Positions 35 through 51,997 of a DNA stretch of 64,000 bases are shown here, piece by piece. The DNA is from Diploptera punctata. Its lineage: Eukaryota; Arthropoda; Insecta; Blattodea; Blaberidae. Position 1 is the stretch's first letter. Every line of letters starts with the position of its first letter. The stretch covers positions 781,797-845,796 of the forward strand of contig JASPKZ010007287.1 of NCBI GenBank assembly GCA_030220185.1, given 5' to 3'. Made by a program: the position numbers and the translations under genes. Under the pieces are notes generated by a model, which had not been told where the DNA came from, did no database searches, and worked only from the letters and a program-made list of their open reading frames with translations.

Positions 35-573
35 TTTTATTATTGATTTCGTACATCTCAATGATGGATAAATCATATTTGAAGAGAAAAATTATACGCT
101 CAGACCGGGACTTGAACCCGGGACCCTTGGTTCTCTAGACCAAGTGCTCTACCAACTGAGCTACCTGAGCAAGTACCGATCTAAACGCAAATCTTTCTCT
201 ATATACATTGTAATTCCCATCCACCAAATGCTGTGAAGCCATGCTTCTATCTTGCAAACGGCGGCTCCTTTATTAAGAAGACATATTTGGGAATTATACA
301 TTACAGCCAGTACGGCTTTTTCCAAGTTGGAAAAAGCCGTACTGGCTGTAATGTATAATTCCCAAATATGTCTTCTTAATAAAGGAGCCGCCGTTTGCAA
401 GATAGAAGCATGGCTTCACAGCATTTGGTGGATGGGAATTACAATGTATATAGAGAAAGATTTGCGTTTAGATCGGTACTTGCTCAGGTAGCTCAGTTGG
501 TAGAGCACTTGGTCTAGAGAACCAAGGGTCCCGGGTTCAAGTCCCGGTCTGAGCGTATAATTTTTCTCTTCAA
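35..573. mobile_element. SINE1 inverted dimer (tRNA-like hairpin) with 12-bp TSD
   Basis: Two copies of the tRNA-like SINE1 unit lie tail to tail as an essentially perfect palindrome centred on base 326, with arms of about 250 bp. The tRNA-like heads are at 98-170 (minus) and 482-554 (plus), 73 nt each, with acceptor, D, anticodon and T stems all able to pair. The anticodon loop reads CTAGAGA. A 12-bp duplication, atagttttattt, flanks the insertion at 23-34 and 574-585, so the dimer seems to have inserted as one unit. A perfect palindrome can be a library artefact, but the TSD argues against that. Confidence 0.85.
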
Positions 574-605
574 ATAGTTTTATTTGATTTTCATATTTAT
601 TATAT

Positions 606-3119: not shown

Positions 3120-3574
3120 TTGACATTATAATGAAACATTGTATCATCCATCCAAAAATAATACATCCCGTTTTTAAATAGGCAATGCATGATCAACGGT
3201 TATTATGACTCATAATTTTAGAAATAAAAATATAGTAGTAGTAATAATAATAGTAGTAGTCTAATGCCCAGAATCTTGGATGATCTTCATTCTCCTTCTT
3301 GCTTCCCAGTACAATTTTGATAAAGGTTCATTTCCAGTAATTTTGAAGTGCAAACCATTTTGCAAGATGATCTCCATTCATGATTGAACTCTGCTCTTTA
3401 CATAACACAAATTGTAGTTTTGTATATGGATATCATATTTAAATTAGCCCCCAAACAATCATGATCAGTTCTTCGATGAACAAAGACGCTGCTTCAATGT
3501 CTTTGGGTGAATGTGACGCAGGAGTTTTAATTATAGTTGACCATGATTTATTCATATGGCTTCTGTCGATGGAT
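3120..3574. other. No recognised feature
   Basis: AT-rich non-coding sequence with a short degenerate (TAG/TAA)n tract near 3230-3262. I see no gene, SINE or transposon terminus. Confidence 0.5.
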
Positions 3575-3835
3575 TTTTTTTTTAGGATGGAAAAATCCAA
3601 GGAACAAGTCCTCCGGGAGGAACTTTAAGCCGTGGGTCCAGAGTCCAAAGATTTTCAGGCTTGTAAATGATCCTTAAGCCTGAATAAAGAGACCTCTAAG
3701 CAAAATTTTACCGACATCAACATCCTAGTAATACTTTAATTGCCTGTTAGATGTCTCATTGGGTCGGTGTGTTGACCACATGCCATCCATGACATCTACG
3801 AGCAAATAAGGTAACCAAAAATTAACTTAACTTAA
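3575..3835 (+). mobile_element. SINE3 body (5'-truncated)
   Basis: Matches the body of the complete copy at 44240-44575: tccgggagg, actttaagcc, ccttaagcctgaataaagag, tgcctgttagatgtctcatt and acatctacgagcaaataagg. The tRNA-like head seen at 44240 is missing here. Confidence 0.7.
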
Positions 3836-5901: not shown

Positions 5902-6002
5902 TGCTATTAATTATATTAAATTAATGTTGGGAAGTAAACATGAGGTATAATCATTAAAATTCATCGGAGAACATTTTGTTTAAACAACTCACCTCATAGG
6001 AT

Positions 6003-6064
6003 TCATGCTTCCATGATACTGCGGTTTCAAACACAGTCATGTTCTTCCTCAGCCATAACTCCGA
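6003..6064 (-). ncRNA. Hammerhead-ribozyme-like motif, PLE-A left end
   Basis: The minus strand carries CUGAGGA (6046-6052), an AACAU/GUGUU stem II, GAAAC, and ACCGCAGU before A and the predicted cleavage site. Stem I can pair as AUGG with UCAU. It mirrors the copy at 8558-8630. Confidence 0.75.
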
Positions 6065-6077
6065 CTGACGAAATTCT

Positions 6078-6620
6078 TCAGCGGTCAACTGTTCTATTGT
6101 CACCATTTTCAGTGCTGCCATCCATGGTTGAATTTATGAACTTCAAAATCAAAATAATTTCCTTAGGAATATCAACATTCATTGATCTATCTTTATTTTT
6201 CTGAATGTATATCTTCTCCCAAACTGTCAATTCCAAAGGCTTCTCTACATGTTTTAAAAGTTTAGCTTCTCTTCCAATTTTATGATGTTCTAATAAACTA
6301 TGTGCAGCAATTGCAGATTTTTCAAGTTCACAATTTTTAATACTTCTGAAATGTTCTTTTGTACGAGTTTCTAAATTCCTTTTTGTTTTTTCTATATAAA
6401 CTTTATTGCAATCTTCACTACTTATTTGATAAATTCCAGATTTCTTACTGTCTGGGACATTGACCTTTTTATTGGTACTTAGAAGATTACGCAGACTAAA
6501 TTTATTTATTGGCGCCAAAGAAATGTTGTATTTGTCAAAAAAAATTTTGAAATTTTGTATGCATTTCAGGATGGTAAGTAACTTTTTGTATTTTTTCTTT
6601 TCTTTGCAATTTTGTAGAGT
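6078..6620 (-). pseudogene. PLE-A left copy: GIY-YIG endonuclease region
   Basis: The C-terminal part of a Penelope-like polyprotein. The GIY-YIG nuclease is visible as SGIYQIS, then CNKVYIEKTKRNLETRTKEH, then KSAIAAHSLLEHH and LTVWEKIYIQKNK. The YIG glycine is Glu here (YIE), unlike the right-hand copy (YIG). PLE proteins pair a reverse transcriptase with this nuclease for target-primed integration (established). The open frame extends about 18 residues upstream (MVAGQRKARP...), but that stretch belongs to the inserted LINE tail, so its ATG is not native. Not functional as it stands. Confidence 0.8.
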
Positions 6621-6800
6621 ACTATAAGATGGCAGCCCCATCACTGGTCTTGCCTTCCTTTGGCCAGCAACCAATCGAAGGGACTATTATTATGCTTTCA
6701 AGTCTTATACGAGAATTTCCTGGAAGCTGGAGGGAAAAATTTCTATAGGATCATAACAGGCCTTGGCTTAATACTTGGAAGGAAGAAGAAGAAGAAGAAG
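6621..6800 (+). mobile_element. LINE-D 3' end with (GAA)n tail, inserted in PLE-A
   Basis: From 6718 it matches the 3' UTR of the copy at 4395-4475 (aacaggccttgg, aatacttggaaggaag) and ends in (GAA)n. The PLE reading frame on either side (LNEYT and QNCKEKKK) is contiguous in the right-hand PLE copy, so this is an insertion. The first ~97 bases are of unknown origin. Confidence 0.65.
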
Positions 6801-6912
6801 TATATTCATTAAGTCTTTTTTTGTGTTTGAATTTCTTCAACTTATCTTCAGTAGATAGGGACAAAGGGAATCTCGTTAATCCATTCATGCACGCCACTAA
6901 TTAGATGACGAG

Positions 6913-7826
6913 TCATTTGGCTACCTTAAGAGAGTCTTTATCAAAACCATTTAATCTAGCAGTGTTTAAGATATGTTTATATTCTTTGTTGAAATTGTTT
7001 TCATTTATTGGTACATTTGTCAGTCTATAGATTAAGCTATTGGATATTGCATGCTTATGAGCAATATGATTGAAGCCTAATGATTTAATGTAATTATCTG
7101 TATGACTTCTTTTCCTATATATATCAAATTCAATTTTTAGTGACGATTTTATTATTGATTTAACACTTCTCATTGAAGGATAAATTATATTTGAAGAGAA
7201 AAATTTTCGCCTAGACTGGGACTCGAACCCTAGATCGCAACTCGCCTCAGTAGCTCAGTTGGTAGAGCACTTGGCCCGGAAAGCCAAGGGTCCTGGGTTC
7301 GAGTCCCGGTCTAGGCAAAAATTTTTCTCTTCAAATATAATTTATCCTTCAATGAGAAGTGTTAAATTAATAATAAAATCGTCAATAGAAGCCCTACTGG
7401 CTTTATAAAGTTGTGTTAAATTCCCAATAAATGTCTTCTTTACTAAGAAGCCGCCATTTGCAAAGATAGAAGCTATGGTTTCAAGCATTTGGCGCGAGGG
7501 AATTACAACGTATATAAGAGAAAAATTTGCGTCTAGATCGCAACTTGCCTCGGTAGCTCAGTTGGTAGAGCACTTGGCCCGGAAAGCCAAGGGTCCCGGG
7601 TTCGAGTTCCGGTCTAGGCGAAAATTTTTCTCTTCAAAAATTCAATTTTTAGTGTTTGATCATCCCTAATTAAACATAAATCCAAAAATGGAATTTTCTT
7701 TTCTTTTTCCAATTCTATGGTAAACTTTACTGATTCATTCTGAAGGTTCAATAATTTAAAAGCATCTTCAATATATTTGGAAATTATTATCGCAAAAATA
7801 TCATCACATTGCTCATAAGCATGCAA
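6913..7826 (-). pseudogene. PLE-A left copy: reverse-transcriptase C-terminal region, split by SINE1
   Basis: Two frames belong together: 7826-7655 (KYIEDAFKLLNLQNES, KKIPFLDLCLIRDDQ) and 7142-6913 (LKIEFDIYRKRSHTDNYIKS, RLTNVPINENNFNKEY). This order, PFLDL, then YRKxxHTDxYI, then NVP...NxxKE, is typical of the PLE segment after the YxDD palm. The SINE1 dimer at 7143-7637 interrupts the LKIEF codons and duplicates 17 bp. The apparent start MRSVKSIIK is SINE sequence. Confidence 0.75.
7143..7637 (+). mobile_element. SINE1 tandem dimer with inverted 5' piece, 17-bp TSD
   Basis: Two plus-strand tRNA-like heads (7244-7316 and 7547-7619, 73 nt, period 303) are separated by one full SINE1 body. 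The left end is a short minus-strand piece of the same unit (7143 to about 7231). A 17-bp duplication, aaattcaatttttagtg, flanks it at 7126-7142 and 7638-7654, inside the PLE-A coding region. Confidence 0.85.
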
Positions 7827-8545
7827 TATTCAATTTTTAGCTTAATCTATAGATTGACAAATGTACCATTAAATGAAGAAAATTTCAACAAAGAATATAA
7901 ACATAACTTAAACACTGCTAGATTAAATGGTTTTGATAAAGGATTGATTATATATAAGTTGAAGAAATTCAAACACAAAAAAATACTTAATGAATATACT
8001 ACTCCACAAAATTGCAAAGAAAAGAAAAAAATACAAAAAAATTACTTACCATCCTGAAATGCATACAAAATTTCAAAAAAATTTTGACAAATACAACATT
8101 TCTTTGGCACCAATAAATAAATTTAGTCTGGGTAATCTTCTAAGTACCAATAAAAAAGTCAATGTCCCAGACAGTAAGAAATCTGGAATTTATCAAATAA
8201 GTTGTGAAGATTGCAATAAAGTTTATATAGGAAAAACAAAAAAGGAATTTAGAAACTCATATAAAAGAACATTTCAGAAATATTAAAAATTGTGAACTTG
8301 AAAAATCTGCAATTGCTGCACATAGTTTATTAGAACATCATAAAATTGGAAGAGAAGCTAAACTTTTAAAACATGTAGAGAAGCCTTTGGAATTGACAGT
8401 TTGGGAGAAGATGTACATTCAAAAAAATAAAAATAGATCAATGAATTTTGATATTCCTAACGAAATTACTTTGATTTCGAAGTTCATAAATTCAATCATA
8501 GATGGCAGCACTGAAGATGGTGACAATACAACAGTTGACAGCTGA
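7809..8545 (+). pseudogene. PLE-A right copy: RT tail plus GIY-YIG nuclease
   Basis: Overlapping frames 7809-8057 and 7990-8286, then a further frame to the stop near 8545, together encode the same protein as the left copy: RLTNVPLNEENFNKEY, KYNISLAPINKFSLGN, KSGIYQISCEDCNKVYIGKT, then after a frameshift KSAIAAHSLLEHHKIG and LTVWEKMYIQKNK. The YIG motif is intact here. The N-terminal RT is absent because the copy starts at the head-to-head junction. Confidence 0.8.
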
Positions 8546-8557
8546 AGAATTTCGTCA

Positions 8558-8630
8558 CCGGAGTTATGGCTGAGGAAGAACATGACTGTGTTTGAAACCG
8601 CGGTATCATGGAAGCATGAATCCTATGAGG
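8558..8630 (+). ncRNA. Hammerhead-ribozyme-like motif, PLE-A right end
   Basis: CUGAGGA at 8570-8576, stem II AACAU/GUGUU, GAAAC at 8594-8598, then the perfectly self-complementary ACCGCGGU and A8605 at the predicted cleavage site. Stem I pairs AUGG/UCAU directly next to the core, then GGA..U/A.UCC beyond an internal loop. This is the best-formed stem I in the window. It starts a few bases after the PLE stop codon. Confidence 0.8.
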
Positions 8631-8840
8631 TGAGTTGTTTAAACAAAATGTTCTTCGATGAATTTTAAATAATTTGCTATTAATTTAAAATTTCCATAAC
8701 TCCTACCGTAAACATGTAAAGCTAATGTAAATATACGTTTTTCAACATGGTTGAAATAAAAAGATTTATAGTTTGAATTTAGTTAAAATAAAAGGTAAGT
8801 AAAGTTGCATTTATATGATAAAGCAAAGTTAGTGTAGATA

Positions 8841-11290: not shown

Positions 11291-11476
11291 TAATTTGGAT
11301 GCTAGATAGGGAATGGATGAAGTCCAAAATCCAGAGCATTAGCACAAACAACATTTTAATTTTTTTTTTAAATTGTATCATTCAGACTTGAAGTTAAGAA
11401 AATGTCACTCCATCTACAATATTAATATAAAATTATAGAATATTCACCTGAAAGGTCCGTCTCCTCAACTTAATTA

Positions 11477-12463
11477 TCATTTAACTGTAGCGCTTTCGGG
11501 ACTTGTCCCATCATCGGCAGGATTCAAAACTGGTGTTTCACTGAAGATCTGGTAGAGGGGGTTGCATGTATTGGGTTCGTTTTCGTTTATCAGGCTGTCG
11601 TTGTGAGCTGCTTTCATGATTTCCATCTCTTCGAGTACGTTTATCTTCGCTGGATTATTTTCTCTGTGCATTACTGTTAGGGTGTTTTCAATATTTAACA
11701 TGCGATGTCCTTCATGGATAACGTGTTTTGCATAGCTTGATTTACCTTCTGCGTGAATGAAGTCTCGAAAATGTTCTTTGAATCTGATGTTAAAACTCCT
11801 GTTTGTCCTTCCTATATAAAATTTGTTGCAGTCCTTACATGTCAGTTTATAAACTCCTTTACTGTTGAAAATGTTATTTTCTTCAATGTTATTGTTTATT
11901 ATGTTGTTTAATTTGTTATTGGTTCTGTATGCTATTTTTACGTTTTTATCGGCTTTCTTTAGTGCATTGGCTAATTTTGTCGTTTCTTTTCCTGTGTATG
12001 TAAGTGTTATCCATGTTTTCTTGTTGTTGTCAGATTCTTTTTCTAGTTTAGTTATGTTGGTTATGTTGTTCTTCCTTAAGTTATTCCTTTTTTGTTTTTT
12101 TACGAGCTTATCTATGAATTCTTCATTATAGCCATTGGTTTTTGCCATATACTTAATGTAGTTGAGTTCTTGGATATAATTGTCTTTGCTTAATGGGAGT
12201 TTCAACATTCTACTGACTAAGCTATTAAATGTACTAATTTTCTGTTGAAAAGGGTGTGTAGAATTTTTGTTTACGGCCAGAGCATTGTTTGTGGGTTTCC
12301 GGTAGATACCGATTTCTAGTTTATTGTTGTGTAGATTTTTGGTTATAGACAAATCTAAGTAGTTTATGCTGTTGTTAACTTCTATTTCTTCGGTGAAAGT
12401 GATTTTTTCATGCATGTTGTTTAGGTCTTGTAGTATTCTTTTTCTTTTCTGTTTCATTTTCAT
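11477..12463 (-). CDS. PLE-B left copy: RT tail and GIY-YIG endonuclease, longest open frame
   Basis: A 328-residue open frame. The N-terminal third has INYLDLSITKN and KLEIGIYRKPTNNA, then HPFQQKISTFNSLVSRMLKL, the post-palm region of a PLE reverse transcriptase. The C-terminal third is a GIY-YIG nuclease: KGVYKLTCKDCNKFYIGRT, then FKEHFRDF and the Ala-Lys-His-Val block. The catalytic YIG tyrosine and glycine and the following arginine are present. The upstream RT palm (IPMGSPTSG, YVDD) is out of frame near 12470-12630, so no intact full protein is made. The ATG is internal to the original ORF. Confidence 0.85.
   Translation of the reverse strand: MKMKQKRKRILQDLNNMHEKITFTEEIEVNNSINYLDLSITKNLHNNKLEIGIYRKPTNNALAVNKNSTHPFQQKISTFNSLVSRMLKLPLSKDNYIQELNYIKYMAKTNGYNEEFIDKLVKKQKRNNLRKNNITNITKLEKESDNNKKTWITLTYTGKETTKLANALKKADKNVKIAYRTNNKLNNIINNNIEENNIFNSKGVYKLTCKDCNKFYIGRTNRSFNIRFKEHFRDFIHAEGKSSYAKHVIHEGHRMLNIENTLTVMHRENNPAKINVLEEMEIMKAAHNDSLINENEPNTCNPLYQIFSETPVLNPADDGTSPESATVK
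11478..11525 (-). ncRNA. Hammerhead-like relic overlapping the PLE-B left ORF end
   Basis: The minus strand reads CCGAUGA (one base off CUGAUGA), a perfect GGGAC/GUCCC stem II, GAAA, self-complementary AGCGCU and A. Stem I CUG/CAG pairs. The motif overlaps the codons for PADDGTSPESATVK, the end of the ORF. Confidence 0.55.
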
Positions 12464-12678
12464 TTATTACTAGTACATCATCGACATATCGTGTTATTAG
12501 TTTTATGTTGAATTTGTGTATTAGTTCCTCAAAATGTTATTTTCCAGTTCTTGTAGGAAGATTTCTGCCATTATTCCAGATGTAGGACTCCCCATTGGGA
12601 TCCCGTCTTCTTGAATAAATAGTTCATTGTTAAATTGGAAGTAATTTTGCTTTATTGTTGTTGTTATTAGTTACTAAA

Positions 12679-13983
12679 ATGACGTCATTCGACATAAAAA
12701 ACCTGTACACTAATATCCCGATAAACGAAACAGCAAACATAATAAAACAAAAACTAACAGACAGTAAACTTGAAGATAACTATATCAATCAGTAAAACAA
12801 ACTAATAACAACAACAATAAAGCAAAATTACTTCCAATTTAACAATGAAACTATTTATTCAAGAAGACGGGATCCCGATGGGGAGTCCTACATCTGGAAT
12901 AATGGCAGAAATCTTCCTACAAGAACTGGAAAATAAACATTTTGAGGAACTAATACACAAATTCAACATAAAACTAATAACACGATATGTCGATGATGTA
13001 CTAGTAATAAATGAAAATGAAAACAGAAAAGAAAAAGAAATACTACAAGACTTAAACAACATGCATGAAAAAATCACTTTCACCGAAGAAATAGAAGTTA
13101 ACAACAGCATAAACTACTTAGATTGTCTATAACCAAAAATCTACACAACAATAAACTAGAAATCGGTATCTACCGGAAACCCACAAACAATGCTCTGGCC
13201 ATAAACAAAAATTCTACACACCCTTTTCAACAGAAAATTAGTACATTTAATAGCTTAGTCAGTAGAATGTTGAAACTCCCATTAAGCAAAGACAATTATA
13301 TCCAAGAACTCAACTACATTAAGTATATGGCAAAAACCAATGGCTATAATGAAGAATTCATAGATAAGCTCGTAAAAAAACAAAAAAGGAAGAACAACAT
13401 AACCAACATAACTAAACTAGAAAAAGAATCTGACAACAAAGAAAACATGGATAACACTTACATACACAGGAAAAGAAACGACAAAATTAGCCAATGCACT
13501 AAAGAAAGCCGATAAAAACGTAAAAATAGCATACAGAACCAATAACAAATTAAACAACATAATAAACAATAACATTGAAGAAAATAACATTTTCAACAGT
13601 AAAGGAGTTTATAAACTGACATGTAAGGACTGCAACAAATTTTATATAGGAAGGACAAACAGGAGTTTTAACATCAGATTCAAAGAACATTTTCGAGACT
13701 TCATTCACGCAGAAGGTAAATCAAGCTATGCAAAACACGTTATCCATGAAGGACATCGCATGTTAAATATTGAAACACCCTAACAGTAATGCACAGAGAA
13801 AATAATCCAGCGAAGATAAACGTACTCGAAGAGATGGAAATCATGAAAGCAGCTCACAACGACAGCCTGATAAACGAAAACGAACCCAATACATGCAACC
13901 CCCTCTACCAGATCTTCAGTGAAACACCAGTTTTGAATCCTGCCGATGATGGGACAAGTCCCGAAAGCACTACAGTTAAATGA
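12679..13983 (+). pseudogene. PLE-B right copy: reverse transcriptase and GIY-YIG nuclease with frameshifts
   Basis: Starts with SFDIKNLYTNIPINE, RT motif A with its catalytic Asp. A stop near 12793 and one extra A near 12847 break the frame. Then come EDGIPMGSPTSG (motif B), TRYVDDVLVI (motif C, YVDD), NYLDCL, YRKPTNNALAI, and the nuclease block up to NPADDGTSPES. Further frameshifts fall near 13120, 13500 and 13780. The left arm lacks the single-base insertion, so the changes arose after the arms were copied. The dead copy still shows the whole domain order RT, linker, GIY-YIG. Confidence 0.85.
13934..13982 (+). ncRNA. Hammerhead-like relic overlapping the PLE-B right ORF end
   Basis: Same as the left-arm motif: CCGAUGA, stem II GGGAC/GUCCC, GAAA, then AGCACU and A. 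The U4-to-C change is in both arms, so it predates pair formation or is native to this family. Confidence 0.55.
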
Positions 13984-14099
13984 TAATTAAGTTGAGGAGA
14001 CGGACCTTTCAGGTGAATATTCTATAATTTTATATTAATTTTGAATAAACCTCAACGGAACACATCATGAATCTTATAAAAGTTGACCATCTACAATAG

Positions 14100-17800: not shown

Positions 17801-17813
17801 TATTAATATGAGT

Positions 17814-19611
17814 GTTAATATTATTCGTTTTTAAACACCTTAATGATGGACAAATTATATTTGAAGAAACTGGCTTTATAAGTAATGTTTAAATTCCCAA
17901 TAAAAAGTCTTCTTAACAAAGAAGCCGCCATTTGCAAAAATCGTAGCAACGGCTCGTAGCATTTGGGGTTAGGGAATTAACTATATGTAAGAGAAAAATA
18001 CGCGTTTAGATTGGAGGCCTAGGTGGCTCAGATGGAAGAGCATTGACATAGAAAGTCAAAGGTCCTGGGTTCAAACCCCAGTCTAGGCGTATATTTTTCT
18101 TTTCAAATATAATTGTCCATCATTAAGGTGTTTAAAAACGAATAATATTAACATTGAAAGAAGCACTACTGGCTTTATAAGTAATGTTTAAATTCCCAAT
18201 AAAAAGTCTTCTTAACAAAGAAGCCGCCATTTGCAAAAATCGTAGCAACGGCTCGTAGCATTTGGGGTTAGGGAATTAACTATATGTAAGAGAAAAATAC
18301 GCGTTTAGATTGGAGGCCTAGGTGGCTCAGATGGAAGAGCATTGACATAGAAAGTCAAAGGTCCTGGGTTCAAACCCCAGTCTAGGCGTATATTTTTCTT
18401 TTCAAATATAATTTGTCCATCATTAAGGTGTTTAAAAACGAATAATATTAACATTGAAAGAAGCACTACTGGCTTTATAAGTAATGTTTAAATTCCCAAT
18501 AAAAAGTCTTCTTAACAAAGAAGCCGCCATTTGCAAAAATCGTAGCAACGGCTCGTAGCATTTGGGGTTAGGGAATTAACTATATGTAAGAGAAAAATAC
18601 GCGTTTAGATTGGAGGCCTAGGTGGCTCAGATGGAAGAGCATTGACATAGAAAGTCAAAGGTCCTGGGTTCAAACCCCAGTCTAGGCGTATATTTTTCTT
18701 TTCAAATATAATTTGTCCATCATTAAGGTGTTTAAAAACGAATAATATTAACATTGAAAGAAGCACTACTGGCTTTATAAGTAATGTTTAAATTCCCAAT
18801 AAAAAGTCTTCTTAACAAAGAAGCCGCCATTTGCAAAAATCGTAGCAACGGCTCGTAGCATTTGGGGTTAGGGAATTAACTATATGTAAGAGAAAAATAC
18901 GCGTTTAGATTGGAGGCCTAGGTGGCTCAGATGGAAGAGCATTGACATAGAAAGTCAAAGGTCCTGGGTTCAAACCCCAGTCTAGGCGTATATTTTTCTT
19001 TTCAAATATAATTTGTCCATCATTAAGGTGTTTAAAAACGAATAATATTAACATTGAAAGAAGCACTACTGGCTTTATAAGTAATGTTTAAAATTCCCAA
19101 TAAAAAGTCTTCTTAACAAAGAAGCCGCCATTTGCAAAAATCGTAGCAACGGCTCGTAGCATTTGGGGTTAGGGAATTAACTATATGTAAGAGAAAAATA
19201 CGCGTTTAGATTGGAGGCCTAGGTGGCTCAGATGGAAGAGCATTGACATAGAAAGTCAAAGGTCCTGGGTTCAAACCCCAGTCTAGGCGTATATTTTTCT
19301 TTTCAAATATAATTTGTCCATCATTAAGGTGTTTAAAAACGAATAATATTAACATTGAAAGAAGCACTACTGGCTTTATAAGTAATGTTTAAATTCCCAA
19401 TAAAAAGTCTTCTTAACAAAGAAGCCGCCATTTGCAAAAATCGTAGCAACGGCTCGTAGCATTTGGGGTTAGGGAATTAACTATATGTAAGAGAAAAATA
19501 CGCGTTTAGATTGGAGGCCTAGGTGGCTCAGATGGAAGAGCATTGACATAGAAAGTCAAAGGTCCTGGGTTCAAACCCCAGTCTAGGCGTATATTTTTCT
19601 TTTCAAATATA
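17814..19611 (+). mobile_element. SINE1 hexameric tandem array with 12-bp TSD
   Basis: Six tRNA-like heads start at 18017, 18316, 18616, 18916, 19217 and 19517 (periods 299-301). Units differ only by one-base indels. Each head is 72 nt with perfect GCCTAGG/TCTAGGC acceptor pairing (one G-T), a GGGTTCAAACCCC T arm and anticodon loop ATAGAAA. Outside the head, agaaaaatacgcg and its partner tatatttttct extend the acceptor stem into a long hairpin. The first ~50 bases are an inverted piece of the unit. A 12-bp duplication, attaatatgagt, flanks the entire array at 17802-17813 and 19612-19623. Confidence 0.9.
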
Positions 19612-19622
19612 ATTAATATGAG

Positions 19623-19835
19623 TACCTGATATATCAGTCGTCCTCAATTAAAATGTCAAATGTTAAAATATTTAATTCCCCAACTAAAATGTTGAAGATG
19701 ACTGTTATATCAGGTACTTATTTTAATAATCATAGTTAAATATAGGAAATAACATTATGAGGTTCTTAATTCATGAATGAATGAGTCAGTTTTACATCTT
19801 ACCTCATAGTTTATTTTTTCTTAAACATGAGTCCC
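19623..19835. repeat. Short inverted repeat plus PLE-type terminus
   Basis: tacctgatatatcagtcgtcctcaa-type arm (about 19623-19647) pairs with 19691-19715. Then comes a terminus (tatgaggttcttaattcatg, acctcatagtttat) that recurs at 21700-21780 and 63503-63660. This looks like the end of a PLE family. Confidence 0.5.
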
Positions 19836-20516
19836 GGTCTAGAGGCGAAAATTTTTCTCTTCAAATATAATTTATCCTTCAATGAGAAGTGTTAAATTAA
19901 TAATAAAATCGTCAATAGAAGCCCTACTGGCTATAAAGTAGTGTTAAATTCCCAATAAATGTCTTCTTAACTAAGAAGCCGCCATTTGCAAAGATAGAAG
20001 CTATGGTTTCAAGCATTTGGCGCGAGGGAATTACAACGTACATAAGAGAAAAATTTACGTCTAGATCGTAACTCGCCTCGGTAGCTCAGTTGGTAGAGCA
20101 CTTGGCCCGGAAAGCCAAGGGTCCCGGGTTCGAGTCCCGGTCTAGGCGAAAAAATTTTTCTCTTCAAATATAATTTATCCTTCAATGAGAAGTGTTAAAT
20201 TAATAATAAAATCGTCAATAGAAGCCCTACTGGCTATAAGTAGTGTTAAATTCCCAATAAATGTCTTCTTAACTAAGAAGCCGCCATTTGCAAAGATAGA
20301 AGCTATGGTTTCAAGCATTTGGCGCGAGGGAATTACAACGTACATAAGAGAAAAATTTGCGTCTAGATCGTAACTCGCCTCGGTAGCTCAGTTGGTAGAG
20401 CACTTGGCCCGGAAAGCCAAGGGTCCCGGGTTCGAGTCCCGGTCTAGGCAAATTTTTCTCTTCAAATATAATTTATCCTTCAATGAGAAGTGTTAAATTA
20501 ATAATAAAATTACCAT
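19836..20516 (+). mobile_element. SINE1 tandem array, two full heads
   Basis: Begins with the last 20 or so bases of a tRNA-like head. Full heads follow at 20075-20147 and 20377-20449 (period 302), with SINE1 bodies between and after. These belong to the same subfamily as 7143-7637 (head gcctcggtagctcag, loop CCGGAAA) rather than to the hexamer subfamily. No clear TSD was found. Confidence 0.8.
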
Positions 20517-27689: not shown

Positions 27690-30600
27690 ATGTCGAAGGT
27701 GATAAGCCAGACGAAATAAGTACCTTGGTCGAAAGAGTGACGATCTTTCACCGTAAAAATACAACCGTCAAGAAATGCGGACATGGGTTCTACTGGGGTA
27801 AAATTTTCCGGAGGTCAAATAGTCCCCCATTCGGTTCTCCGGGCGGGGACTACTTCAGGGAACCCATGCCAAAGGCTCAAACACAGGGACATGTTCCTAG
27901 GAACATGGAATGTTAGGACTTTATACAATAGCGGGGCACTAGAGATATTAACACGGGAATTGGATAAATCGCCCTTGGATATAGTCGCTTTACAGGAGTT
28001 AGAGGGTTAGGTGGCCAGGAGAAGGTAGTCAGGAATCAGGAAGCTTTGCATTATACTATGGGGGTGCAGAAAGACCTGCATTTGGAACGGGTTTTTTAGT
28101 CAGAAGAAGGATCCTATCCGCTATCCGAGATATTAAGTTTGTTAGTGATAGGATATCATACATAATTCTAAAGGGTAAACGACATGATTTTATAATTGTA
28201 AATGTACATGCCCCCACAGAAGATAAAGATGACAAGATCAAGGATGAGTTCTATGAAGAATTAGAATGCTTATTTGATAGCCTTTCACGATATCATATGA
28301 AAATTGTCTTAGGAGATTTTAATGCAAAAGTGGGGCGGGAAGATATATTCAAACCAACAATAGGCAAATTCAGTCTTCATGAAGATAGTAACGACAACGG
28401 GGTTAGATTAGTCACATTTGCCACATCAAAGAATCTCATTGTTAAGAGCACAACATTTCAGCATAAGGATATTCATAAATACACCTGGACGTCCCCAGAT
28501 GGAGAAACTCGGAACCAGATAGATCATGTATTAGTGGATAAACGGCTGGCACAGTAGCATCATTGATGTTAGATCAGTTAGAGGGACAGACTGCAATTCA
28601 GATCATCATCTGGTCAGGGTGAAAATCAGACAACGGCTATCGCTTATGAGAGGAACAAACGCTAAACATGATTCTGTAAAATATGAATTAAAAAACTTGA
28701 AAAATGATGAAATGCGGCAAGAATACCAAATCAAAATTGCTAATAGATTTGAAGTACTGGAATCTTCAGATGACAATGTGGCAAACGAAGAAGAAGAAGA
28801 ACTGATATAAATAAAGAATGGGAGGCTATAAGAGATACTATTAAATTGTCAGCATCAGAAAGCATTGGTGTTTAAAAAAGAGCCAAAACAAGAAATGGTT
28901 TGATGAGGAATGTGCCGACATTGTAAAGAAAGAAAGCTAGCAAAAATGAAATGGTTACACGAGCCAAATGAGGTAAATTTAGAGCAATTGGGTAGTGTTA
29001 GACGGGAAACCACCAAGTTACTAAAGAGTAAAAAGAGGGAATATTTGAGAGAGAAGATTAATGATCTTGAAATGAATGCAAAAAATAGGAACATTAGAGA
29101 ATTATATCAGGGAATTAGTATAGAGAAGAAAGGGTTTCAGGCTAGAACAAACATAATTCGGAATGAAAATGGGGATATGATTGCAGATTCCAAGAGTATA
29201 TTAAATAGATGGAAAAGTTATTTTAATCAGCTATTAAATGTACATACAGAACAGGACATTGAGGAGGATAAGTTACAGACAGCAGAAATGCTAGTCGCAG
29301 AGCCAAGTGCATTAGAGGTTGAAATGGCAATTGAAAAATTGAAGATGTATAAAGCATCAGGTTCAGATGAGATCCCAGCAGAACTGATAAAATCAGGGGG
29401 AGAAAAATTGATGGACAAGATACGCTGTTTGCTTAGTATGATTTGGGAAAAAGAAGCTCTTCCAGATGAATGGAAGGAATCAATTATCGTACCAATTTAT
29501 AAGAAAGGAGATAAAACTGATTGCAACAACTATAGGGGCTTCTCATTACTTTCGACTTCGTACAAAATTCTAACAAATATATTAGTAAGCAGACTTACTC
29601 CCTATATTGATGACATTCTAGGAGATAATCAATGTGCATTTAGAAGAAACAGGTCTACAACAGATCAGATTTTTAGTATAAGACAGATTTTAGAAAAGAA
29701 ATGGGAATATAATGGTACTGTACATCAACTATATGTAGACTTCAAAAAAGCATATGACTCAATTAAGAGGGAGAAGTTATATAGTATCCTTCTGGAGTTC
29801 GGAATTCCTAAAATGTTAGTTAGACTTATACGAATGTGTCTAAATGGCTCAACGAGTAGGGTGCGTGTAGGCAAACAGTTTTCAGACACTTTTGAAATCC
29901 AGAATGGGTTGAAGCAAGGAGATGCACTATCTCCTCTACTATTTAATTTTGTACTAGAGCATGCCATTAAATCTTTAGAGAATGAGGAAGGCTTACAACT
30001 CAATGGTATTAATAAGCTGTTAGTTTATGCTGATGATGTAGTACTACTGGCCGATAGCGAGGAGATACTAAAGGCCAACACGCACACACTATTGAGTAAC
30101 ACTAAGAAATTAGGACTGGAAGTAAATATCAGTAAAACTAAATATATGGTCACACATAGAAATACATTATATAATGGAAATGGAACAGCTAATGGCAAAT
30201 GAGGGAAATTTTGAGGAATTGGCTGAATTCAAATACCTAGGAACAATAATCACAAATAGGAATGAGATGCACAAAGAAATTAAACATAGGCTCAATTCTG
30301 GAAATGCATGCTATTATGCATTGCAGAGACTTTTGATGTCCCAACTCCTTTCAAAAAACGTTAAGCTGAAAATATATAAAACTATTATTCTACCAGTTAT
30401 ATTATATGGGTGCGAAACATGGACTCTTACTTTAAGGGAGGAAAGGAGATTACGAGTATTTGAGAATAAAGTTCTTAGGAAAATTTTTGGACCAAAGAGA
30501 GATGAACAGACAGGTGAATGGAGAAGACAACATAACAATGAACTACATGGTCTTTACAGGAAGCCAGATATAATAAGAACAGTTAAATCCCGTAGACTGC

Positions 30601-30866
30601 GATGGGCAGGACATGTTGCGCGTATGGGGAATGAAAGACGTGCATGGAAACTTCTTGTAGGAAAGCCAGAAGGAAAGCGCCCAGTTGGTAGACCAAGAAA
30701 GAGGTGGGAGAACAACATTAACTATGATTTGAGGGAAGTAGATTATACAGGGAATGATTGGAAAGGATTAGCTCAGGATAGGGATGTATGGAGAGCTTAT
30801 GTCCGTGCGGCCATGAACCTACGGGTTCGATAGTGCCAGTGAGTAAGTAAGTATATATATATATAT
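27690..30866 (+). mobile_element. Nearly full-length RTE-clade LINE
   Basis: About 3.2 kb, the usual size for RTE, with one ORF (endonuclease then RT), a very short 3' UTR and a (GTAA)n then (TA)n tail. It starts directly after the Helitron end; the precise 5' end is not certain. Other copies in the window (23035, 25248, 30885, 49849) are 5'-truncated pieces of its 3' end. Confidence 0.85.
27888..30832 (+). pseudogene. RTE ORF: APE endonuclease and reverse transcriptase, frameshifted
   Basis: The apurinic-type endonuclease shows [51 protein letters not shown] and [10 protein letters not shown], all in order. The RT is open for 430 residues (28910-30202): LPDEWKESIIVPIYKKGDK, CAFRRNRSTTDQIF, VDFKKAYDSI (motif A), GLKQGDALSPLLFN (motif B) and LVYADDVVLLADS (motif C, YADD). 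The C-terminus (30174-30833) has ILYGCETWTL, KVLRKIFGPKRDEQ and RLRWAGHVARMG. At least four frameshifts (near 28010, 28555, 28807 and 30170) separate the parts, so it is dead but recent. The endonuclease resembles the CFDP2/BovB-like type. Confidence 0.9.
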
Positions 30867-31610: not shown

Positions 31611-31629
31611 AGTTGGTTATATATAATAA

Positions 31630-32330
31630 TATTTGAAGAGAAAAATTTTTGCCTAGACCGGGACTCGAACCCGGGACCCTTGGCTTTCCGGGCCAAGTGC
31701 TCTACCAACTGAGCTACCGAGGCGAGTTACGATCTAGACGCAAATTTTTCTCTTATGTACGTTTGTAATTCCCTCGTGCCAAATGCTTGAAACCATAGCT
31801 TCTATCTTTGCAAATGGCGGCTTCTTAGTTAAGAAGACATTTATTGGGAATTTAACACTACTTTATAGCCAGTAGGGCTTCTTTCGACAATTTTTATTAT
31901 TAATTTAACACTTCTCATAGAAGGATAAATTATATTTGAAGAGAAAAATTTTTGCCTAGACCGGGACTCGAACCTGGGATCCTTGGCTCTCCGGGCCAAG
32001 TGCTCTACCAACTGAGCTACCGAGGCGAGTTACGATCTAGACGCAAATTTTTCTCTTATGCACTTGGCCCGGAAAGCCAACGGTCCCGGGTTCGAGTCCC
32101 GGTCTAGGCGAAAATTTTTCTCTTCAAATATAATTTATCCTTTTCGTACAACGTACATAAGAGAAAAATTTGCGTCTAGATCGTAACTTGCCTCGGTAGC
32201 TCAGTTGGTAGAGCACTTGGCCCGGAAAGCCAAGGGTCCCGGGTTCGAGTCCCGGTCTAGGCGAAAATTTTTCTCTTCAAATATAATTTATCCTTCTATG
32301 AGAAGTGTTAAATTAATAATAAAAAATCAT
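31630..32330. mobile_element. SINE1 cluster: two minus units, then plus units
   Basis: Minus heads at 31651-31723 and 31954-32026 (period 303). A truncated plus head at about 32058-32108 and a full plus head at 32190-32262. The right body is shortened. The short direct repeat atatataataa (31619-31629 and 32331-32341) may be the TSD, but it is low-complexity. Confidence 0.8.
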
Positions 32331-34769: not shown

Positions 34770-35165
34770 ATTGATAAGAATAAAATTAATCGTGAATTCT
34801 TCTTACGTCATACTTCTATGTTTTTTTAAACACAGCACTGCAGTATCGGCGACCATTGTCACCATCATCAGCTGTTTTCATGACTCTCAATTTTTTCTTT
34901 TGCCGGTAATTATCCAAACTGCCATCTGGTGTTCTTCTGAAGGAATAATTTTCTAAACTGCCATCTGGTGTTCTTTTGAAGGATGGCAGTTTAGAAAATG
35001 ATTCCTTCAAAAGAACACCAGATGGCAGTTCGGATAATTACTGGCAAAAGAAAAAATTGACAGTCGTGAAAACAGCTAATGATGGTGACGATAGTCGGCG
35101 ATACTACGGTGCTGTGTTTAAAAAAACATAGAAGTATGAGGTAAGAAGAATTCACGATTCATTTT
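34770..35165. repeat. PLE-type inverted repeat with decayed hammerhead cores
   Basis: Arms about 34773-34975 and 34980-35165 are inverted copies (gccatctggtgttctt, gaagtatga). The minus strand near 34840-34890 reads CUGAUGA, a 6-bp stem II and GAUAC instead of GAAAC; the plus strand reads CUAAUGA. The left arm holds an internal duplication of the ctaaactgccatctggtg piece. Confidence 0.6.
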
Positions 35166-46243: not shown

Positions 46244-47570
46244 CGAGGTGTGATCAATAAGTTTCCAGAATGGCTTCAAAACAATTATGCCATTGAGGAG
46301 TTTTTAATTTTCACCCAGGCTGTACATTCAGAATTTCCTTGTGATGAATTTGAGGGGTCGCGTGACCTTCTCTGACCTTGCAGTATGCTGGTAGAAGCTC
46401 TGAAGTGAAGACGTGTTTTGTGCGTGCGGCGATTTCTCTGTGTAGCAACAATGCGGGATTACGAGGAACAAAGAACATGCATCAAATTTTGCTTTAAACT
46501 TGGTAAAACTGCAACAGAAACATATCAAATGTTAAGAACAGCTTATGGGGAGGAAGCAATGGGCAAATCTCAAGCATTTGAGTGGTTTTCGAAATTTAAA
46601 AGGCGCGTGACATCGGTTAAGGATGAAAATCGTCTGGGATGACCATCTTCCAGCAAAACCAATAAAAATATTGATCGAGTGAGGGAAATGGTATTAAATG
46701 ATAGGCGCATTACAATACGAGAACTGTCTGATGCACTAGCACTCTCGTTTGGAAGTGTTCAAAGCATTTTGAAAGACGATTTGAACATGCGAAGAATTGC
46801 TGCAAAGTTCATGCCCCGCCTCCTTTCAATTGACCAAAAGGAAAGTCGTGTGATTGCCTGCACAGATCTTAAAGAACAACTTAAAAATGACCCATGGTTC
46901 ATGGAAAAGGTTATTACTGGTGATGAAACATGGATTTATGGCTACGATCCAGAAACTAAACAACAGTCTTCGCAATGGAAGAGTCCTGCATCTCCACGCC
47001 CCAAGAAAGCCAGACAAGTTCGATTGAATGTGAAGTCAATGATGATTGTTTTTTTTGACATTAATGGAATTGTGCATAAGGAATTTGTACCACGGGGTCA
47101 AACAGTGAATCAAGTGTACTACAAACAAGTGTTGCAAAGATTGAGGGAGAGTGTGCGACACAAACGGCCAGAGAAATGGAGGACTGGTTCCTGCATCACA
47201 ACAATGCGCCCGCGCACAAAGCAATTTCTGTCTGCCAGTTTTTGGACAAAAATAGGATGAGTACTGTTCCCCATCCAGCCTATTCTCCAGATCTGGCTCC
47301 AGCAGACTTTTTCCTGTTCCACGGTTAAAAATTCGGCTCCGAGGATATCGTTTTGAGGACATTGATGTCATTCAGCGCGAATCGCAGAAGGCATTGGACA
47401 CATTTAAAGAAGTCGACTTCCAGAAGTGCTTCCAGCATTGGCAGAAGCGCTGGGACAAGTGTATCAACTCCCAAGGTGACTACTTCGAGGGTGGACAGTG
47501 CTGAATAGAAACTTTGAAGTGTTGTGTTGTGTTTATGGCCTCATTCCAGAAACTTATTGATCACACCTCG
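46244..47570 (+). mobile_element. Mariner 3, nearly full length
   Basis: 1327 bp, the usual mariner size, with TA duplications (46242-46243 and 47571-47572) and ends cgaggtgtgatcaataagtt. The plus-strand transposase starts at 46451 (MRDYEEQRTCIKFCFKLGKT). One stop (TGA at 46640) and a frameshift near 47180 are the main lesions. VITGDETWIYGYDPETKQQS holds the first catalytic Asp. SMMIVFFDINGIVHKEFVPR is present, and HHNNAPAHK and YSPDLAPADFFLF lie past the frameshift, a DD34D-type pattern. Few changes, so it is a recent insertion. Confidence 0.9.
46451..47500 (+). pseudogene. Mariner 3 transposase pseudogene
   Basis: DNA-binding half 46451-46642, including the RTAYGEEAMGKSQAFEWFSK block (split HTH). 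Catalytic half 46679-47260 and beyond: RRITIRELSDALALSFGSVQ, then the DD34D domain. The two halves are in the same frame apart from the single TGA; the C-terminus is in another frame from about 47180. Catalyses cut-and-paste transposition in active relatives. Confidence 0.85.
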
Positions 47571-51800: not shown

Positions 51801-51997
51801 TGACCATTATTCTGTCGTCTTGGAAGAGCCATCTTTCGCTCCCTCTATTGGTAGACTGAAAAACCTCATAATCAGGTCATTCTCCCCGGGAATTTCAAAG
51901 TTCTTCAATTTCTCCTTTGAAATTCCCAGGGAGAGTGACCTGATTTCGAGGTTTTTCAGTCTGCCAATAGCGGGAGCGAAAGATGACAGAATAACGG

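Follow-up and report, generated by a model that had tools for sequence, protein, structure and literature searches.

A family of tandem tRNA-bearing repeats in the Diploptera punctata genome whose insertion ends point to Penelope-like elements

The array at 17802..19623 and its tRNA-like module

The window analysed here is a stretch of 64,000 nucleotides of the Diploptera punctata genome. An earlier note had described, at 17802..19623, a hexamer of tRNA-like units with a short inverted piece at its left, enclosed by one target-site duplication (TSD). The sequence and a blastn comparison with the unit confirmed that the array between its TSDs is real and lies at exactly these coordinates. The units are indeed tandem and nearly identical, their number being refined to 5.82 units of 300 bp plus an inverted arm of 52 bp. 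The inverted piece is present as well and is not incidental, as it forms the other arm of an insert with two arms, and its outer end lies at an alternative site (B). The features of the array are:

17802..17813, left TSD ATTAATATGAGT, a perfect 12-bp match identical to 19612-19623
17814..17865, minus strand, left arm, an inverted unit fragment of 52 bp running from unit position q284 down to q233, outer end at site B (blastn against the unit; sequence)
17866..17869, GAAA at the head-to-head junction of the two arms (sequence)
17870..19614, plus strand, right arm of 5.82 tandem 300-bp units, outer end at site A (q245) (blastn; sequence)
18017..18089, plus strand, tRNA-like cloverleaf of unit 1 (ARAGORN; Rfam tRNA, 59.1 bits)
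18288..18403, plus strand, approximate extent of a predicted long stalk enclosing the tRNA in one unit (fold z = -5.28)
19612..19623, right TSD ATTAATATGAGT, identical to the left TSD

The right-arm units measured 299, 300, 300, 300 and 301 bp, with a last one of 245 bp whose final 3 nt are common to the right TSD. They were 99.7-100% identical to the reference unit, which was drawn from this same array. Each unit carries one cloverleaf, the further ones starting at 18316, 18616, 18916, 19217 and 19517 (ARAGORN, Rfam). No open reading frame (ORF) of at least 120 aa overlapped the array, and thus none for the reverse transcriptase (RT) and GIY-YIG endonuclease of a Penelope-like element (PLE); we therefore do not file the array as a PLE and call it PLE-type in its insertion only.

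ARAGORN named the module tRNA Ser by its anticodon. A true serine tRNA is defined by a long variable arm, which this tRNA-like module lacks, its variable loop being 4-5 nt. An A box at q155 and a B box at q199, read by eye against the consensus, are the pol III boxes of a tRNA SINE, and runs of five and four T (q225 and q231) follow the tRNA in mid-unit. Among 19 aligned copies, the acceptor stem paired in 116 of 133 cells (shuffle mean 102.7) and the anticodon stem in 91 of 95 (shuffle mean 80.5), values that 0 of 2000 shuffles reached in either case. T-stem pairing was not above shuffles, 78 of 2000 reaching it with all copies and 358 of 2000 with one copy per family. This covariation is partly built in, because the tRNA finder had found 17 of the 21 copies; of the four that it did not find, two were read by eye, and w54619 and w54056 were kept out of the pairing test. 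The modules of the families may also descend from different host genes, and some of the covariation would then be inherited.

A long stalk around the tRNA was predicted in three subfamilies (z of -5.28, -5.93 and -6.05), and in the predicted fold minimum it competes with the acceptor stem. When the leaders and trailers of six divergent families were paired together, 4 of 720 assignments were as good as the true one, itself included, and a family's own pairing was best in only three of nine families (X, u6, w5303). This test is supportive of the predicted stalk but mixed. Both tRNA and stalk lie upstream of site A, which falls about 10 nt past the predicted stalk. Since the T runs come directly after the tRNA, a role of the stalk in processing or enzyme recognition is favoured over one as promoter.

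The window holds other elements. An RT ORF (RVT_1) with a second, overlapping ORF lies at 28910-30833, which we take to be an RTE-type LINE, and a transposase fragment (Pfam Transposase_1), presumably mariner-type, at 46679-47260. Long hairpins at 2157-2267, 670-781, 34947-35039 and 51859-51956 gave sub-threshold microRNA-family scores, mostly on both strands, and are perhaps palindromic short transposons.

Ends, arms and target sites across the family

A search of the genome (3.12 Gb, 10165 contigs) with one unit gave 678 candidates, the best 40 of which were scored. Thirty-nine loci besides the window were fetched. L019 is a haplotig of L011 and L031 of L030, which leaves 38 distinct arrays. 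Array lengths in this sample are not representative, because the 40 primary arrays were picked as the best among 678. The two haplotigs were removed before counting, together with elements shorter than about 70 bp or lying at the edge of a locus, except those in the window, and the classification of ends and TSDs covered the loci before L048. In this classification the script fused the L036 array with its neighbour and classed it as 5'/5', and it chose a 9-bp TSD for L009 where another boundary analysis gives 16 bp. Matches of 51 nt at array ends were dropped, as they look like an effect of the search window. The same end and TSD analysis placed four further inserts in the window:

35..576, second insert, B/A, subfamily u3, TSD ATAGTTTTATTT
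7135..7648, third insert, B/A, subfamily u2, TSD match AATTCAATTTTTAGTG, nested in a PLE insert
31625..32324, fourth insert, A/B, subfamily u2, rearranged middle, TSD TATATATAATAA
35558..36326, fifth insert, B/A, TSD ATGATAATGATGA

The outer ends fell at two unit positions about 42 nt apart, A near q244 and B near q286. Bins drawn after the data were seen (A, q236-258; B, q276-296) span 44 of the 300 positions and took in 87 of the 106 outer 3' ends of 68 elements, incidental copies included. Many of the 19 ends outside both bins came from diverged families or interrupted arrays. Both ends were binned in 31 of the 68 elements, and 30 of these paired A with B; the exception, L045, was B/B, and no insert was A/A. 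All eight incidental inserts with two binned ends, which the query had not picked, were likewise A/B.

A TSD match of at least 9 bp bordered 27 of the 31 double-ended inserts, a count that includes L045, whose TSD is doubtful. The other four had matches of 6-7 bp (L025, L036 3438-3882, L037 and, by the script, L017, for which the other analysis gives 12 bp). Exact matches of at least 9 bp occurred in 1.75% of randomly paired flank windows, and chance is therefore an unlikely cause of the TSDs. Their length was most often 12 bp (14 of 30 TSDs), and their AT content was 0.82 (30 TSDs) vs 0.66 in the window. For several one-armed arrays (L010, L016, L039, L040, L041, L043), no TSD was found.

Two opposed arms, joined head to head, made up 26 of the 38 distinct arrays, with the 3' end of a unit outermost on either side; the other 12 had a single arm. 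At the 26 head-to-head junctions the arms overlapped by 0-6 bp in 18 cases, by 9 bp in one and by 28 bp in one, and were separated by gaps of 4-7 bp in five and of 47 bp in one. In this selected set, biased to long arrays, 50 of 64 arms exceeded one unit, the longest reaching 9.46 units; shorter inserts exist among the incidental copies. Both arms were often multi-unit (3.52 + 3.59 in L024, 2.21 + 3.59 in L013, 2.39 + 3.70 in L047). The 64 arm 5' ends showed no peak, with at most 6 per 10 nt vs a simulation mean of 6.5 and a distribution that deviated slightly from uniformity (KS p = 0.03), and thus gave no sign of a fixed 5' end of the RNA.

Several copies deserve mention in their own right. 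At L020 675-754 lies a minimal insert of about 80 bp, with an A arm of 20 bp, a B arm of 73 bp and a 16-bp TSD match, both arms having stopped almost at once. The array of L032 is broken at 3494-3786 by what looks like an ordinary tRNA SINE from a different family, and this SINE could be used to date the array. Many units share recurrent C>T and G>A changes at CpG (unit positions 81-82, 132-135 and 220), as expected if the arrays are methylated. Together with family X, two other families follow the same plan of tRNA plus tandem units, with different stem sequences:

L040 3559-4191, other family with 328-bp units, 9-bp TSD AGGGAATTC read by eye
L017 2992-4991, other family with 291-bp units

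Resident Penelope-like elements and the proposed mechanism

The window also holds resident PLE inserts of a similar plan, each with a GIY-YIG-like ORF:

5913..8668, second resident PLE insert, 11-bp TSD TGCTATTAATT
6078-6674, minus strand, GIY-YIG-like ORF in this insert, 21.5 bits, just below the Pfam cut-off of 22.6
11425..14095, resident PLE insert of two opposed arms with a short and a long end, enclosed by the 12-bp TSD CCATCTACAATA
11477-12463, minus strand, GIY-YIG-like ORF in this insert, 20.6 bits, just below the same cut-off of 22.6

GIY-YIG sequence is abundant in the genome, with 45022 first-look candidates; 150 were scored and all 150 passed the cut-off. Of the resident PLE inserts, 19 candidates were examined; in 11 the boundaries carried clean TSDs (9, 10, 11, 12 in six, 15 and 18 bp), and each of these inserts, judged by eye, had a short and a long end. 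Two of the remaining candidates had matches off the boundary and six had matches of only 5-8 bp. No autonomous PLE with the unit's tail sequence appeared among the stretches listed of 26 PLE 3' regions, a small sample of a very large set, and the tail was not noticed among PLE arms in other loci, where the probes were partly contaminated by the unit and other repeats. A protein search with the window PLE returned four matches and no useful name.

The two kinds of element also meet. At 19733-20510 a Penelope-type arm adjoins a u2 arm 5' to 5', a candidate chimera that we did not use as evidence because its sole candidate TSD is 9 bp (TTTAATAAT) and its filler is of uncertain origin. At L018 2640-2880 and 3931-4499 and L036 2416-3112, Penelope inserts lie within unit arrays (12- and 9-bp TSDs) and a unit array lies within a Penelope tail (13-bp TSD), so that each kind hits the other.

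The biochemistry of PLE insertion has been described in vitro for a green anole PLE protein, which cut and extended both strands at AT-rich DNA, with reverse transcription initiating within the RNA at a pair of adjacent sites, which correspond to the genomic 'tail' (PMC11167929). No strand difference in start site was seen, and the start sites lay within an AC-rich stem loop of the ORF (PMC11167929). Other PLEs have been described with inverted arms, a 31-bp tail and TSDs of 8-10 bp (PMC3846280), and for butterflies there is mention of 'short, nonautonomous Penelope elements' (PMC6685494). Like PLEs of the Penelope/Poseidon group as described in these sources, the unit inserts have two 3' ends tens of nt apart, opposed arms, tandem or partial-tandem units, an AT-rich target, a TSD and microhomology joins (PMC11167929, PMC3846280). 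Unlike PLEs, the unit is only about 300 bp long, has no ORF and carries a tRNA-like module; no hammerhead was found in it, nor a sequence match to a PLE tail. Two further differences concern the anole element as that study describes it: the two sides of the unit inserts use different start sites (30 of 31), and the unit, having no ORF, has no AC-rich ORF stem loop in that form (PMC11167929).

Two adjacent internal starts, extension of both strands and AT-rich targets are the published PLE signature (PMC11167929), and it is on this ground, together with the like plan of the resident PLEs, that we read the inserts as products of PLE machinery. The ends, TSDs, two arms, A/B rule, junction overlaps and resident PLEs of like plan are all observed; the identity of the protein, a multi-unit RNA template and a role for the tRNA and stalk are what we infer from them. 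The unit, about 300 bp long and bearing a tRNA-like module, is probably a non-autonomous retroelement that a resident PLE protein with RT and GIY-YIG endonuclease inserts from multi-unit RNA. The endonuclease would cut both strands of AT-rich DNA about 12 bp apart, and each free 3' end would prime reverse transcription inside the multi-unit RNA, on one strand from site A and on the opposite strand from site B, about 42 nt away. Each cDNA would extend back over a variable number of units. The two would then be linked head to head, in most cases across 0-6 bp of homology, and once the staggered cut is repaired a single TSD would enclose the whole insert. The tRNA and stalk may serve as promoter, processing signal or landmark for the enzyme.

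The hexamer with a short inverted piece described in the earlier note is thus not supported in that form: the array is no ordinary SINE hexamer with a stray fragment, and its ends show dual internal priming of Penelope type. Such priming implies a multi-unit template, of which a circle is one form; circles and long linear multimers are both compatible. Because internal initiation loses the 3' part of the RNA, arms from a linear template would be no longer than their source, a loss that a circle would avoid. Rather unlikely, in our estimate, is a further step in which the tRNA module has replaced a hammerhead: the host's tRNA-processing enzymes would release unit-length RNA from longer transcripts by cutting at the tRNA, and a tRNA ligase would close or concatenate it into endless templates, while the competing folds of tRNA and stalk could switch between processing and reverse transcription. 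Families u1-u3, X, L040 and L017, which differ in their stems, would belong to this class.

Template, later growth and significance

The earlier note had taken the single TSD as a sign that a multimer was inserted once. This is still the most likely origin of the array, with the qualification that the number of units can change after insertion. Joined flanks of 33 inserts were compared with unoccupied relatives of the target repeat, and four matched well: L028 (95% over 254 columns), L046 (96% over 255 columns), the window insert at 35-576 (98.7% over 154, and 100% over 154 at 746-899) and L016 551-1357 (87.5% over 272 columns). Among 200 non-CpG events in the 38 arrays, 171 were private to one unit, 16 were shared by a subset of units and 13 were array-wide, that is, common to every unit covering the site; CpG events, left out of this main count, were 61, 14 and 1, respectively. 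The 171 private events indicate that most mutations postdate the present size of the array. The haplotype 115-117 was homogeneous in 33 of 36 arrays vs a shuffle mean of 11.8, its pair identity being reached in 0 of 5000 shuffles. Taken together, homogeneous haplotypes and mostly private events suggest that the arrays began as copies of an almost uniform multi-unit template and acquired their mutations later.

How this template arises is a separate matter. The earlier note had pointed to a circular RNA or rolling-circle template as in retrozymes, where the unit would be excised and closed into a monomer RNA circle that the RT rounds repeatedly. This route is a version of the template step and not exclusive of PLE insertion, and we hold it as a tentative possibility. 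It would fit the arms of many units with no 5'-end peak and the homogeneous haplotypes, and the circle would escape the 3' loss of internal initiation. Metazoan retrozymes are tandem repeats of about 300 bp with circular RNA (PMC7229834), and PLEs have been proposed as their movers (PMC7761336). Non-coding units, low GC and TSDs when present are further likenesses to the non-LTR retrozymes of metazoans as these sources describe them, whereas the opposed arms and paired end sites of the unit have no counterpart in the descriptions compared (PMC7229834, PMC7761336). Against this route, the hammerhead core CYGANGA, sought on both strands of the element copies, gave a single match at the extreme edge of one L016 element. 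Retrozyme membership thus fails for want of a hammerhead, and the tRNA with covarying stems is a further difference. We rejected Rfam as a hammerhead test, since it missed the hammerhead-like motifs of four PLE loci (L048, L056, L058, L069). Such motifs occurred in at least five of the 26 PLE 3' regions (these four and L066), L048 having the only one in its set of six. Subset-shared variants, i.e., mixed unit types, were present in 13 of the 38 arrays, which disfavours a monomer circle as the only template; in L022, L021, L014 and L045 the variant was in both arms and absent from some units, and L015 and L029 switch unit type along the array.

Local expansion, in which a short insert came first and later unequal exchange multiplied the units inside it, is unlikely as the general explanation. 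Alleles with different unit numbers at the same TSD, which the earlier note had named as the finding that would favour it, occurred in one of two haplotig pairs. L030 and L031, whose flanks are 99.1-99.4% alike, share a TSD, yet one of them has an extra unit, and this unit carries an 82-bp insert that includes an ATT run; it is this pair that shows that unit number can change. L011 and L019 have the same number of units. Variants in contiguous subsets of units (L015, L032, L038, L042) also favour expansion, arms of more than one unit hold the overlap needed for exchange, and the longest arrays, which the selected set favours, may have grown. Against it stand the excess of private over subset-shared events and the frequent multi-unit state of both arms, as in L024, L013 and L047.

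An ordinary LINE-driven tRNA SINE that combined twin priming with tandem units is very improbable. The tRNA-like pol III boxes at q155 and q199 and the LINE-like ORFs within the window speak for it, and the unit resembles tRNA-derived SINEs in having A and B boxes, no ORF and many copies. Twin priming by LINEs fixes the 3' end alone, whereas both outer ends of these inserts are fixed sites. Ordinary tRNA SINEs, in the words of the earlier note, insert as monomers, and the multi-unit arms described above, in a sample biased long, do not follow this. Multi-unit two-armed inserts, a tRNA in mid-unit followed by T runs, and array ends that showed no poly-A or simple-repeat tail where examined are likewise unlike tRNA-derived SINEs. 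Integration of a tandem DNA circle or rolling-circle (Helitron-like) DNA would account for tandem, near-identical units and is extremely improbable in view of the AT-rich TSDs of about 12 bp, two opposed arms, A/B rule and fixed ends.

Related arrangements have been described elsewhere. Squamate SINE-derived satellites, whose arrays derive from SINE portions, and the orphan tRNA-like repeats of amphibians (about 200-360 nt), which have no assigned SINE in the account available and are likened to the unit by description only, also hold tRNA-like sequence in tandem units (PMC10702118). The TRIMp3 elements Helenus and Ajax carry a small-RNA-gene promoter inside a non-autonomous retroelement, which, unlike the unit, is of LTR-retrotransposon type (PMC10886601).

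Insertion by PLE machinery, as we prefer to read these arrays, bears on how such elements move. The ends of this repeat family point to PLEs, the third class of retroelements, whose mechanism is known largely from a single recent study in vitro. That study saw no strand difference, whereas the A/B rule (30 of 31) suggests one start site per cut side in the genome. The usual view is that LINEs mobilise short elements that bear a tRNA. In the literature searched, with most subscription papers outside it, we found no tRNA-bearing element assigned to Penelope machinery. Because the RNA 3' of an internal start is not copied, propagation would be open only to templates that are multi-unit or circular; if so, this would explain the tandem arrangement of both Penelope relatives and retrozymes. 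A PLE-driven origin may also apply to the orphan tRNA-like tandem satellites of amphibians, a possibility that can be tested.
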